Assembly: GCA_020721225.1 (NCBI GenBank)
Contig: DYNE01000016.1
Coordinates: 1 to 45,397 of the forward strand
DNA: 45,397 nt
DNA from: Pelodictyon luteolum
GTDB lineage: Bacteria; Bacteroidota; Chlorobiia; Chlorobiales; Chlorobiaceae
Direction of reading: 5' to 3'
The notes beneath the pieces are model-generated. The model was given only the letters and a program-made list of their open reading frames with translations. It ran no database searches and was not told the origin of the DNA. Below are positions 20,210 to 30,019 of the stretch, one piece after another. A program made the translations under genes and the position numbers. The first letter of the stretch is position 1. Every line of letters starts with the position of its first letter.

Positions 20210-20245
20210 GATGCATAAATGCACTCCCGAAAAGCTTCACCGATC

Positions 20246-22222
20246 ATGAACGAACTGACGCTAACCATAAACGGCCGGACAATCTCCGCAACTCCGGACA
20301 TGTCGATTCTTCAGGCTGCCGCATCAGCGGAAATCGCAATACCGACGCTCTGTTTTGACAACACGCTTGAATCCACAGGCTCCTGCTGGATGTGCATCGT
20401 AGAGCTCAAGGGAAAAAACCGGTTTGTTCCGGCATGCAGCACCGCAGTATCCGATGGCATGGTTATCGAAACGGAAAACAGCGACCTGCACGCCATGCGC
20501 CGCCAGAGTCTTGAGCGCATCATCGACCAGCACTGCGGCGACTGTATGGGTCCATGTGAACTCTCCTGTCCTGCAGGCTGCAACATTCCTGACTTCATCT
20601 CCGAAATAGCCAGTAAAGACTACAGCGAAGCCATCAGAATAATCAAGGAGACGATTCCCCTTCCGGGTATTCTCGGCAGAATTTGTCCTGCCCCATGCGA
20701 AGACGAATGCCGACGCCACGGCGTGGATGAACCGGTTTCCATCTGCGCCCTGAAACGGTATGCCGCCGATCGCGATATGGAATCCGCTGACCGCTATATT
20801 CCGGAAATCCCGGAAAAAACCGGAAAAACAGTTGCCATTATCGGTTCAGGGCCGGCTGGACTGAGTGCGGCCTATTATCTGCTTGCTCTTGGTCATGACG
20901 TCACCATATTCGACGCCAACGAAGCCCCTGGAGGCATGATGCGCTATGGCATTCCGCGGTTCCGTCTGCCGGAAAGCGTTCTCGACAAGGAAATCGAGCC
21001 TCTTCGGCTCATGGGAGCCCGATTCCGCATGAACACCGTTTTCGGCAAAGATATCGCCATGGCATCGTTGCAAAAAGAGTACGACGCGCTCTTTCTCGCT
21101 CTTGGCGCATCGAAAGCCTCTCTCATGGGGATCCCCGGCGAAGAGGGCCCCTCCGTTACAAGCGGCATAGATTTTCTGCACCATGCCGCCTCAGGAAACG
21201 CCATCTATCCGGGGAAAAAGGTACTTGTCATAGGCGGAGGCAATACCGCAGTCGATGCCGCAAGAACAGCCAGACGACTCGGAGCCGAACAGGTAACTAT
21301 GCTCTACCGCAGAACGCGCAACGAAATGCCGGCAAATCATGCCGAAATCGAGGAGGCGCTTTCTGAAGGCATTACCCTGCATGCGCTTGCTGCTCCGATA
21401 TCCATCAACACGTCTGATGGCACCGTAACACTGACTGCCGTTATCATGCGACAAGGGGATCCGGATGAGAGCGGAAGAAGAAAACCGGTTCCTGTTTCCG
21501 GTTCCGAATTCACGATAACCTGCGACACGGTAATTTCGGCAACCGGACAGCAGGTTGACTGCCCGAAAGAGGATCTGAACGGAGTGACCATCAACAGAAA
21601 CGGAACACTTGCCGTCGATCCGCAAACCCTGCAGAGCAGCGTTGCGTCGGTATTTGCCGGAGGAGACTGCGTTACCGGTGCAGATATTGCCATCCGCGCA
21701 GTGGAACAGGGCAAACGGGCGGCATATTTCATCGACTGTTTTCTGCTTGGAAAAACACTTAAAGAGGAAGTTGCCGCATTCAACTCTTCCTACGGTCCCA
21801 GAGATCTGGCTCCGGCATCATTTTACAAACGGGTGCAAACAGCAAACAGGGTACCGATACCGGAAATAGATCCGGAATCAAGAACCGGAGGTTTCATGGA
21901 AGTGGTTACCGGATTCAGTGAAACCGATGCCGCCACCGAAGCCGCCAGATGCCTGCAGTGCCGCTGCAAAGCCATCGATACCTGCCGACTTCGTGATCTC
22001 GCCGCACGCTACCTTCCGGACTACACATACCGTCAGCAGGAACATCCGGAATTCAGCATCACGGCAACACCGTACATTCTTCTTGAACGGGAAAAATGCG
22101 TGGACTGCGGTATCTGCGTAAGAACGCTTGAAGAGTGCCGAACAGAGCCGACTGCGGACTATCACAAACTGGCAGCCTCATGCCCGACGGGAGCGCTGAG
22201 CGAACCGGCGCAATCCCGTTAG
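20246..22222 (+). CDS. Iron-sulfur flavoprotein: NuoG-like 2Fe-2S domain fused to GltD-type NAD(P)H oxidoreductase
   Basis: From the ATG at 20246 the product has 658 residues; an earlier ATG at 20219 adds nine. The order is: a plant-type 2Fe-2S domain with cysteines at about 36, 47, 50 and 64; a His-Cys-rich segment HCGDCMGPCELSCPAGC like the NuoG N-terminus; a GltD N-terminal Fe-S region (CPAPCEDEC); a FAD site (GSGPAG, about 200-205); an NAD(P) site (VIGGGNTAVDAARTA); and a C-terminal CVDCGIC Fe-S motif. It resembles the beta subunit of glutamate synthase and related electron-input modules. No partner subunit is adjacent, so the acceptor is unknown. It ends a plus-strand run and is followed at once by repeat R2. 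Confidence 0.85.
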   Translation: MNELTLTINGRTISATPDMSILQAAASAEIAIPTLCFDNTLESTGSCWMCIVELKGKNRFVPACSTAVSDGMVIETENSDLHAMRRQSLERIIDQHCGDCMGPCELSCPAGCNIPDFISEIASKDYSEAIRIIKETIPLPGILGRICPAPCEDECRRHGVDEPVSICALKRYAADRDMESADRYIPEIPEKTGKTVAIIGSGPAGLSAAYYLLALGHDVTIFDANEAPGGMMRYGIPRFRLPESVLDKEIEPLRLMGARFRMNTVFGKDIAMASLQKEYDALFLALGASKASLMGIPGEEGPSVTSGIDFLHHAASGNAIYPGKKVLVIGGGNTAVDAARTARRLGAEQVTMLYRRTRNEMPANHAEIEEALSEGITLHALAAPISINTSDGTVTLTAVIMRQGDPDESGRRKPVPVSGSEFTITCDTVISATGQQVDCPKEDLNGVTINRNGTLAVDPQTLQSSVASVFAGGDCVTGADIAIRAVEQGKRAAYFIDCFLLGKTLKEEVAAFNSSYGPRDLAPASFYKRVQTANRVPIPEIDPESRTGGFMEVVTGFSETDAATEAARCLQCRCKAIDTCRLRDLAARYLPDYTYRQQEHPEFSITATPYILLEREKCVDCGICVRTLEECRTEPTADYHKLAASCPTGALSEPAQSR

Positions 22223-22238
22223 TGATCTCTCTTATTCC

Positions 22239-22622
22239 AATGTATCGAGCACTTCGTGCTCGGGAGTATGCTCGCTGTCGCATTGCTGGAGTATCGCTTC
22301 GCGGCAGAAGATTGGGGAATTAGTTCTTGGTTCTGAGGGCTGAGGGCTGAGGGCTGAGGGCTGAGGGCTGAGTGGAGATCGGAAAAACGTGCTGTGCTGA
22401 GTGTTACGGGTCAGGTTGAAGTGGCTGGATGGCTTGTCAGCTGAAGTTGAAAAAAGAACATAATTTTATGCCGCTCGGAGCGCGATACTCCCATTCGCGG
22501 AGCGAATGATACTCCCGGGCGTACCCGATCGATGCTCCCGCGAAGCGATACTCCTTTTTTTCACTGGTTAATAGCAAGGAATTTCAGGATTGTCGCGGGC
22601 AATATAAATTGGAAATGGAATT
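22239..22622. repeat. Composite hairpin repeat (copy R2)
   Basis: This 384-bp element fills the gap between two converging genes. On the left are three units in one orientation (GGAGTAT followed by a palindrome; 22239, 22263, 22288). Then comes a core of about 165 bp holding a heptamer array. On the right are four units in the opposite orientation (ATACTCC tails 22485, 22509, 22532, 22548), and last the tail shared with copy R1. The 17-mer GGAGTATCGCTTCGCGG at 22288-22304 is the exact reverse complement of 22538-22554. The element ends 7 bases before the stop of the next gene. Confidence 0.88.
22333..22372 (+). repeat. G-rich heptamer tandem repeat
   Basis: Five exact copies of CTGAGGG plus CTGAG. 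Five GGG tracts are spaced by CTGA. The matching place in copy R3 (around 28295-28308) has only two TTCTGAG units, so the number and sequence of repeats vary between copies. Confidence 0.95.
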
Positions 22623-22628
22623 AAGCCC

Positions 22629-22904
22629 CTATTTCCAGGATTTCAGCAGCTCGAAAAGGGGTTTAAGCGTTGCCCCGAGACGGCCGAGCGATAACGACAC
22701 CGTCTCCTGCATCTGGCGGAAAGTTTCAGGAGCGTCACCCCCGCTTATCTGCAGATATGCCGCATAGAGTACCGCTACCGCAACAACGACGATCAACAAC
22801 TGCACCACCTTTCTGAAAAAAGAGAGCAGTATCATGACGGCAACAATAACCGCAACGGCAAGCGCCAGAGGGTTGCCGGAAAGAAGTTCGACAAGCTTTT
22901 CCAT
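22629..22904 (-). CDS. Small membrane protein of unknown function (91 aa)
   Basis: Residues about 12-50 are hydrophobic and can form two helices split by FRKVV; the C-terminal half is amphipathic. I do not recognise the family. It begins 8 bases after the lpxB stop, which suggests translational coupling and possibly an envelope role. Its 3' end abuts repeat R2. Confidence 0.7.
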   Translation of the reverse strand: MEKLVELLSGNPLALAVAVIVAVMILLSFFRKVVQLLIVVVAVAVLYAAYLQISGGDAPETFRQMQETVSLSLGRLGATLKPLFELLKSWK

Positions 22905-27580: not shown

Positions 27581-28120
27581 ATGGATTTTCTTTCTTCAAA
27601 ACGATTTATTACCGCAACACTCGCCATTCTGATCGTAATGAATGTTGCGCTGCTCGGTCTGCTGTGGTGGCAGAATATCCACAAACCTGAAGAGCGGCAG
27701 ATCAGAATAACCCGCGAATACAAACGGCAGATTTACTTTACCGGACCGCTTGCCCTCTCCGAAGAACAGAGTCTCCGATTCCGTAAACTTCGGCAGGAAC
27801 ATTTCAGAACGGTTAAACCAAACATTCAGGCCATAGCAGAACTGAAAAAGGAGCTGGTAAAGGAATCGATAAAAGAAAAACCCGATACCCTTAAAATCAA
27901 ATCACTTGCTGGCCGCATAGGAACACGGCAGGCAGTCATAGAAAAAGAACTTGCCCTGCACTTCCATGAACTTGCAATGGTCTGCACCCCTCCCCAGCGG
28001 GACTCTCTCCAGAAAATACTGGAACGTATCGCCACACGTAAAGCGAATGTCAGAAAAGAACGATTTGGTTCGCCGCCCCATGAAATAAGAGAATTCAAGA
28101 TCATCAGGGAAGAGCGGTAA
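27581..28120 (+). CDS. Membrane-anchored Spy/CpxP-like protein
   Basis: A 179-residue protein with an N-terminal helix (about 10-30) that is likely an uncleaved anchor, then a helical periplasmic domain. It has LSEEQ (family LTxxQ type) and a later CTPPQR in the place of LTPEQR. It aligns along its length with the preceding gene: ESxKxxPDxxKIxxLxxxIG is shared. The family includes metal sensors (CnrX, ZraP) and envelope chaperones (Spy, CpxP). As a membrane-bound sensor it could control the anti-sigma factor upstream. GGGAGGA lies 13 bases before the start. Confidence 0.8.
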   Translation: MDFLSSKRFITATLAILIVMNVALLGLLWWQNIHKPEERQIRITREYKRQIYFTGPLALSEEQSLRFRKLRQEHFRTVKPNIQAIAELKKELVKESIKEKPDTLKIKSLAGRIGTRQAVIEKELALHFHELAMVCTPPQRDSLQKILERIATRKANVRKERFGSPPHEIREFKIIREER

Positions 28121-28183
28121 CAGTCAGCATTCCCCACCCGAGAAGAGAATTGTGGGCTGTGAGCAGTTGGTTGGCGGAGATCA

Positions 28184-28419
28184 TGAGTATCGTTCGCGGG
28201 GCGAACGGGAGTATGCTCGCTGTCGCATCGCGGAGTATAGCTCGCTTCGCTTTGCTGGAGTATCGCTTCGCGGTAGAAGATTGGGGAATTAGTTCTGAGT
28301 TCTGAGTGGAGATCGGAAGAACGTGCTGAGTGTTACAGGTCAGGTTGAAGAGGCTGGAGTTGAAAAAACATAATTTTATACCGTGCGGCGCGCGATACTC
28401 CCGCGAAGCGATACTCCTT
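28184..28419. repeat. Composite hairpin repeat (copy R3)
   Basis: Left array with four GGAGTAT-palindrome units (28184, 28208, 28232, 28257), a core of about 95 bp matching the R2 core without the heptamer expansion, and a right array of two ATACTCC units (28395, 28411). The left 17-mer 28257-28273 and the right 28401-28417 are perfect reverse complements and identical to those in R2. The two middle right units (47 bp) are missing exactly. The R1/R2 tail is absent. It lies between converging genes. Confidence 0.88.
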
Positions 28420-28504
28420 TTCTGCCCACGAATTTTCACCGATCGGCACGAATCAGCGCCTGTTTGTCAATGGGGACATAGAATAAGAGTGACGAAGTGG
28501 CAGC

Positions 28505-30019
28505 TTATCTTCCGCTGAATTTACTGCGTATTTTGGCAAGGACAAGAAGGCTTTCCTCACGGAAAAGCAACGCCGCCGCAGAGGCATAGAGTGCCAACAG
28601 AGCGAACCTCGAAGCGACATCCTCAAATGCACCTTCAAGCGTCCGGGAAATATACTCCTGAAAAAACGCGGCAGCGATTCCTGCTACAAACAGTATAAAA
28701 AGTTTTTTCCAATCGTAACGGTTCGGAAATACCCTGAGCGAATAGTAAGCCATTACCAGGCACATGACAATCGTTCCGGCAACAATGGCGTATGCCGCAC
28801 CATCCATACCGCTCAGAGGAATGAGCAGCCAGCAGGCAAAGCCTGTCACCGCCGCTCCGGCAAACGTAACGACCGGCAGATAGCGGGTATTGCCTGTTAC
28901 AAGCATTCCTGATGAAAGGTTGGTGGAAATCATGTCAAAAACATAACTGAGAAAAATCCATGGCAGCACGGACAGGCCGATCCAGTATTTAGGCGGCAGG
29001 ATGTAAAAACTGCCTCCATAATGGTATCTGACGAGATCCGGCACGAAAAAAGTAGCGGCAAGCGCACCAAACATCGTGATATACGTTGAAATACTGAGCA
29101 CATAGCGAAAGAGTCTTTTGGCATCGGGATCGTTGGCATGCTGCAGAAAAAAAGGCTGCCACGCAAAGCGGAAAACCTGAATCACCAGCTGCAGGATAAT
29201 GCCGAAGGCTGCTACACGGCCATAAATTCCTACGATATCCGAAGCCATATACCCATCACCATATATTCTCCTGATATCGGACGATGAAATTCTGATGAGC
29301 AGGTTACGGTCGATCAGATGAATAAGCAGCCCGGCAATACCGGTAGGGACATACGGCAGGCCGATGCGAAGCATTTCACGCAGATAATCGAAAGAAAAAA
29401 CCGGTTTCAGTTCCCTGAAAAGCGGAAGTACCGCGGCAAAACTCACCAGCGACCCGATGATATTGGCAAAAAAAGCGCCGGGAAGGCCTGCATCGAAAAC
29501 GATCAAAAGAACCAGAGCGGCGAGCACTACGGCAACCACGCCGATAATCCGCGCAACGGCAAACCGCAGAGCTTTCCGCTTCAGACGCAGCTCGGCAAAC
29601 GGAATCACCAGCAGGGTATCGATCCAGAGAATGATTGCCGCATAGTTGATAAACTCCCCATCCTCCGCACCAAGACCGATCATGGAAGCAATATCTGCAG
29701 AGAAGAGTACCATAATCAAGGCAAAAAGGGTCGAGGTAACGAGGAGGCTGAAAAAAGCGGTCGAAAAATACCCCCTGGTATCTCCGGAATGGCGAAGGGT
29801 ATCGGAGGCGGATTTCAGGTATGAGGTCTCAAGTCCATAGGAAAACAGAACATTTGCCAATGCGATATTGGCATACACAACCGTCTGAATCCCGTTGTCG
29901 AAGGTAGTGAGCTTGTTGGCATAAAGCGGAACAAGCAGGTAATTGAGGCTACGGGCAACAATGGTACTTGCACCGTATATAACCGTATCTTTGGCAAGCA
30001 GTTTTAGTTTCGCGAGCAT
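28505..30019 (-). CDS. Polysaccharide flippase (MOP/Wzx-like)
   Basis: A 504-residue protein with about 14 predicted helices, typical of lipopolysaccharide or polysaccharide exporters of the MOP superfamily. The N-terminus [28 protein letters not shown] is characteristic of RfbX/Wzx-type proteins. It likely flips a lipid-linked sugar unit. No glycosyltransferase genes are adjacent, so the substrate is unknown. It begins 17 bases after the upstream small membrane gene. Confidence 0.88.

Follow-up and report, generated by a model that had tools for sequence, protein, structure and literature searches.

A tagged hairpin-array repeat of a green sulfur bacterium is probably the interior of an IS630-derived MITE with TNA target duplications

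Introduction

The BOX elements of Streptococcus pneumoniae are small modular repeats with variable numbers of internal units and with RNA folding. Nezha elements are bacterial MITEs of the IS630/Tc1 superfamily, and we know of no tagged hairpin arrays in them. IS630 elements usually duplicate TA, not TNA, and two overlapping frames are common for those IS630 elements that are read by frameshift. The nearest described case to the element studied herein is RUP, a non-coding, intergenic and high-copy MITE of IS630-Spn1 whose transposase is thought to be supplied in trans (PMC2229807). MITEs are typically 70-300 bp long, and Nezha of cyanobacteria have been named as MITEs (PMC3733652). The related pogo transposons of eukaryotes can have 3-bp duplications, such as TAA in Fot (PMC7386202).

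The window in this study, meaning the whole stretch of DNA analyzed, is 45,397 nucleotides of Pelodictyon luteolum (contig DYNE01000016.1, assembly GCA_020721225.1). It carries copies of an element that, like RUP, is non-coding, intergenic and of high copy number, with terminal inverted repeats (TIRs) that match an IS630-family element. RUP is 107 bp long and has TA-containing targets, and no tagged hairpin arrays are described for it (PMC2229807). The Chlorobium element, in contrast, reaches about 800 bp, has a TNA duplication and carries arrays, and its own genome yielded no partner transposase. It resembles BOX as a modular repeat with variable internal units and folding; no sequence relation is claimed, and the units of BOX do not take the form of heptamer-tagged hairpins that vary in sequence. 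Similarly, it is likened to Nezha, as a bacterial MITE of the IS630 kind, by description and not by sequence. With REP, REPIN and BIME repeats it shares a short 5' tag followed by a palindrome, inverted pairs, intergenic location and many copies. It differs from them in its GGAG(TAT) tag, its varying hairpins, the lack of a RAYT nearby, and its movement as a TIR element with target duplication. In the library of papers searched, there was none on such an element in Chlorobium and none on IS630 elements with TNA duplications.

Results

Structure of the three copies within the window

The opposed hairpin arrays, the exact 17-bp inverted units and the shared core that the sequence-only reading had described in copies R2 and R3 were all confirmed in the sequence. 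Left units consist of GGAGTAT plus a palindrome, and right units of a palindrome plus ATACTCC. The unit GGAGTATCGCTTCGCGG is located at 22288-22304 in R2 and 28257-28273 in R3; R2 has the exact reverse complement at 22538-22554 and R3 at 28401-28417. The common core comprises 60 nt at 93% and 36 nt at 94%. The 17-mers had been taken as the ends of the element; they are internal units, and the termini lie outside the arrays. The coordinates first given missed the termini: R2 occupies 22235-22620, and the R3 homology spans about 28140-28490. The window also has a third copy, R1 (about 1-228), truncated by the contig start.

R2 is a complete copy of 386 bp (22235-22620, + strand; 51% GC) with the U end on the left and the V end on the right. 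Its termini were determined by copy comparison, and its site is empty in relatives. The target-site duplication TTA is present on the left (22232-22234, +) and on the right (22621-22623, +), in the TNA pattern found family-wide. The left array (22246-22304, +) contains the hairpin CGAGCACTTCGTGCTCG with a truncated heptamer, then GGAGTAT plus GCTCGCTGTCGCATTGCT and GGAGTAT plus CGCTTCGCGG. The core (22305-22469, +) includes the conserved AACATAATTTTAT as well as a heptanucleotide run, (GGGCTGA)n. The right array (22470-22554, - strand) is composed of four palindrome-ATACTCC units, one with its heptamer mutated to ATGCTCC. It is followed by the right tail and the V-type TIR (ATTGGAAATGGAA end; 22555-22620, +), also identified by copy comparison. 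Both ends of R2 are internally deleted, with the U end reduced to TTCCAAT and the V end without about 11 nt. The (GGGCTGA)n run itself covers 22335-22373. Similar runs occur at many places in other genomes of the Chlorobium group (G042, G060, G075) and are apparently independent of the MITE.

R3 (approximate limits 28140-28490, +) consists of arrays at 28184-28417 plus inner flank modules, and is a truncated or decayed copy with no recognizable terminal repeats. Its left array (28184-28273, +) has four GGAGTAT-type units, the first with a degenerate heptamer, and its right array (28379-28417, - strand) has two palindrome-ATACTCC units. R1 is the right part of a copy (1-228, +), in which the end of the core is followed by four ATACTCC units (about 67-151), the tail and a V-type end at 199-228. 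The triplet TCA on its right flank (229-231, +) fits TNA, and the left counterpart is off the contig. An Rfam scan of the window returned tRNAs only.

Ends, target-site duplications and copy number of the family

Looking outward from the arrays, the copies have sharp boundaries at GGAA|TNA. The terminal repeats are imperfect, about 30 bp long (TTCCAATTCTATTTCAATAATGC... and TTCCATTTCCAATACAAATATGC...), and abut a 3-bp TNA duplication. Read inward, the U end is TTCCAATTCTATTTCAATAATGCGCTTATAATCC and the V end is TTCCATTTCCAATACAAATATGCAGTTATATTGC; the two are homologous to each other yet distinct. Copy numbers were taken from pattern and BLAST searches plus fetched stretches. The 17-mer GGAGTATCGCTTCGCGG occurs at 94 sites of the 2.62-Mb genome with at most two mismatches, 70 of them exact, and at none for the reversed control, which is far beyond chance. 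BLAST with R3 as query gave 77 matches in the genome. A degenerate TIR pattern detected 82 ends in this genome, 4 in G047 and 2 in G048, again with 0 for the reversed control.

Each of the 27 two-ended elements within the fetched stretches combines a U end with a V end. The flanking triplets were identical by machine in 23 of the 27 (11 TAA, 10 TTA, 1 TCA and 1 TGA), and in 25 after indel correction in L093 and L431. TNA adjoins 84 of the 87 distinct ends in the window's genome (G000). Terminal inverted repeats, a target-site duplication of constant length, sites that are empty in orthologous regions for R2 and R3, and interiors of 238-1033 bp made of repeats and arrays with no transposase gene are all features of a MITE. 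The element is neither short nor AT-rich, which are typical but not obligatory MITE features; array-bearing copies usually measure about 310-810 bp, and R2 has 51% GC. The relatives L425-L431 (on contigs C4, C63, C88, C128, C35 and C27) share the U and V ends and the TNA duplications, but their interiors of 238-955 bp are different and have no GGAGTAT arrays.

Empty sites, genomic context and distribution

The genes flanking R2 are about 20-40 bp apart, stop to stop, in G049, G040, G046 and G047, compared with 406 bp here. The R3 interval is likewise unfilled in these four genomes. The relatives are only 66-80% identical at both loci, and the insertion point is not placeable to the base there. 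The orthologous regions and the 3-bp duplications on both sides of two-ended copies, two checks proposed by the earlier reading, bear out its suggestion of a non-autonomous mobile element.

R2 lies between the convergent genes 20219-22222 (+) and 22629-22904 (-), and R3 between the convergent genes 27581-28120 (+) and 28505-30019 (-). The placement between converging genes had been noted from the window; it holds for these two copies but not for the family, where crude ORF calls gave 9 convergent, 16 tandem and 5 divergent contexts among 30 sites.

Triple-heptamer GGAGTAT arrays were found in 3 of 98 Chlorobiia genomes, with 86 matches here and 5 each in G047 and G048. Among the matches listed, one is in 'Chlorobiaceae bacterium isolate Zod_Metabat.509'; the matches listed outside Chlorobiaceae in the GTDB and IMG/VR scans are other repeats or are without hairpins. 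The family has spread to dozens of sites in one green sulfur bacterium species. In two cases, arrays of two different species adjoin the same flanking sequence: L128 (G047:C22) with L138 (G048:C179), and L066 (G000:C1) with L120 (G048:C80). From these shared flanks, some insertions seem older than the separation of the G047 and G048 species and of the G000 and G048 species.

Layout, covariation and folding of the hairpin arrays

The unusual trait of this MITE is that it carries hairpin arrays with each hairpin after the same heptamer, GGAGTAT. Across the fetched copies, the commonest full layout has four left units and four right units, separated by a core of about 100-200 bp. The left units, each after GGAGTAT, are u1 (CGTTCGCGGGGCGAACG or CGAGCACTTCGTGCTCG), u2 (GCTCGCTGTCGCATCGC), u3 (AGCTCGCTTCGCATTGCT) and u4 (CGCTTCGCGG). 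The right units, each before ATACTCC, are v1 (a GC-rich palindrome), v2 (CATTCGCGGAGCGAATG), v3 (CGGTCGTACCCGACCG) and v4 (CGCGAAGCG). Common variants have fewer units, shorter cores or a tandem duplication of the whole array, as in L097. At this locus (G000:C97:27314-27756), three tandem copies of about 170 bp, each a four-unit array plus flank, have no recognizable ends.

The heptamer is constant while the hairpin sequences vary widely. Covariation was measured on 29 distinct 17-nt units that start with C and end with G, with inner pairing not required; the imperfect palindromes of the u2 and u3 types were left out. Stem pairing was present in 92.6% of cells versus 75% in shuffled sets, and two-sided stem changes numbered 35 versus 9.4 +/- 2.3, where cells count sequences and not events. 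Folding was stronger than in shuffled sequences for R2 as RNA (z -3.3) and for L071 as DNA (z -3.6). The strong folding is partly due to pairing of the left GGAGTAT arrays with the right ATACTCC arrays. The role we infer for the hairpins is the folding of RNA or single-stranded DNA, with the palindromes kept by selection or by template-switch repair.

A recognizable end lies within 260 bp of 48 of the 66 array clusters in the fetched stretches. The other 18, with no recognizable end, include three at contig edges and two chance pairs in coding DNA. About 13 arrays, including R3, are end-less, so some units may move independently.

Relationship to IS630 elements

The family-wide TIR search revealed, in other Chlorobiaceae, pairs of ends separated by about 1.12 kb. 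The transposase inside these pairs belongs to the IS630 family (NF033545, E=5.6e-36; PF13358) and is encoded by two frames, about 170 and 214 aa long, which overlap. The pairs span 1118-1132 bp and were found in G082, G054, G056, G005, G060, G013 and others. The U end of the MITE agrees with the IS end on the transposase side at 33-38 of 44 positions, compared with a maximum of 26 in 2000 shuffles. By eye, the alignment can be followed to about 58 bp, where it has entered the 3' end of the transposase gene. The V end and the other IS end are weakly alike (26-29 of 44). Thus, shared ends as expected for an IS630 derivative are clear for U and weaker for V.

The TA target duplication expected for such a derivative was not seen; both the MITE and its full-length IS relatives have TNA. 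The TNA flanks of the full-length IS are identical in G082, G054, G056, G005, G013 and G060, and mismatched in G021 and G084. The departure to TNA is common to the whole IS630 subgroup.

Searches of the 144 contigs of the window's genome for an IS630 transposase of this lineage found none, and a copy could be missing from the assembly. Two IS630 relatives are present, a broken one (C58, 41-46%) and an intact but unrelated one (C141), neither with these ends. No full IS was found inside a local TIR pair, where the longest interior (1033 bp) has no transposase. The family looks orphaned, because no such transposase was found in the genome.

Insertion at stop codons

The four TNA triplets are either stop codons (TAA, TGA) or reverse complements of stop codons (TTA, TCA), so an insertion at a stop codon rebuilds the stop codon. 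An open frame reads toward 66 of the ends, and 15 of these sit exactly on the stop codon of that frame. Compared with the available TNA sites, 5 stop-codon sites were observed and 2.6 +/- 1.1 expected (n=18, reconstructed gaps, crude ORF calls). This modest excess is suggestive of stop-codon targeting but is not proof, and tolerance may explain most of it.

Discussion

The element moves by a TIR/TNA process, and at least one of its ends descends from an IS630-type element. We consider it highly probable that the repeat forms the inner part of a MITE whose movement depends on an IS630-family DDE transposase acting in trans, in an account that includes its ancestry, amplification, helper loss and array exchange. 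The likely mobilizing partner is an IS630-type DDE transposase and not TnpA-REP. The trans-mobilization, the loss of the helper and the behavior of the arrays are what we infer. An ancestral IS would have lost its transposase gene and gained GGAGTAT-tagged hairpin arrays. The MITE would then have amplified in the species while the helper transposase was present, and the helper may since have been lost or may lie in an assembly gap. Inside the element, tag-hairpin units may multiply and exchange via recombination or replication slippage. The palindromes could be kept by template-switch correction, or by (weak) selection on folded RNA or a single strand, in which the left and right arrays would pair.

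Nested mobilities, in which an older dispersed hairpin repeat with its own mode of spread entered the IS630 MITE and hitch-hikes in it, are a possible but rather doubtful alternative. It is equally tentative to regard the whole as a two-level repeat, whose tagged hairpin arrays multiply and swap modules themselves, keep their palindromes as the sequences turn over, and have colonized an IS630-type MITE. The array-free variants L425-L431 speak for such nesting, as do the arrays without ends, among them those in G047 and G048 beside the same gene (L128/L138), and the array sets L078 and L098 with other hairpins and cores. However, a TIR lies within 260 bp of about three quarters of the arrays, those with no end may be MITEs in decay, and neither an enzyme nor a boundary was found for movement of the arrays alone.

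The covarying stems, the strong folding and the placement of R2 and R3 between convergent genes would also suit arrays that are a selected functional element, such as a bidirectional terminator or an mRNA 3'-end structure. We judge this unlikely, since the gene context is mixed genome-wide, the pattern scan listed no terminator-like sites inside the R2 or R3 arrays, and the sites are empty in relatives and hence not conserved. Stable folding is known for MITE transcripts (PMC10969869), a point that can be counted in favor of a structural role.

The sequence-only reading had also considered a BIME-like structure. A BIME or REPIN cluster of REP-like units mobilized by RAYT/TnpA-REP is improbable. 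The unit layout is REP-like (a short 5' tag and an imperfect palindrome next to it, in inverted pairs and many intergenic copies), about 13 arrays lack TIRs, and the genome does have a RAYT above the NCBIfam cut-off at C9:664-999. But the published REP tag is GT(A/G)G (PMC3686654), not GGAG(TAT), and a REP class usually has a characteristic palindrome, whereas these hairpins vary widely and the heptamer stays. The mobile boundary with target duplications lies at the TIRs, not at the hairpin units. The proposed search for RAYT genes did find them, yet none in the genome is flanked by GGAGTAT units, and among 28 RAYT-like loci examined in 6 genomes there was no GGAGTAT hairpin array close to any. 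After PF01797 and NF047646 searches and reading of the flanks, which held no GGAGTAT hairpins, the RAYT link was rejected.

The RAYT at G000:C9:664-999 (L062, L115) has no GGAGTAT units in its flanks. At G000:C40:8900-9190 (L063, L117), a RAYT-like domain lies in frame inside an apparent HsdR-type restriction subunit (1332-aa open frame), as does a repeated peptide of the ENGGLENPPPFQENG type. A RAYT match in G048 (C44:9421-9711, L500) lies in a similarly long open frame of 1082 aa.

Chance or an assembly artefact, which the many contigs ending inside copies might suggest because repeats break assembly, is refuted by the 94 sites of the 17-mer against none in the control, by the target duplications, and by the same elements in the two other genomes, G047 and G048.

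The IS630-derived MITE directs attention to an IS630 subgroup whose target duplication is TNA instead of TA. Because stop codons are rebuilt, the element may survive more easily in a compact genome. What resembles a REP cluster in a bacterium can be the inside of a DDE-transposon MITE, and catalogues based on palindromes only can therefore mis-assign the mobilizing enzyme. The covarying hairpins behind a fixed heptamer raise the question of how palindromes are kept up in selfish DNA.
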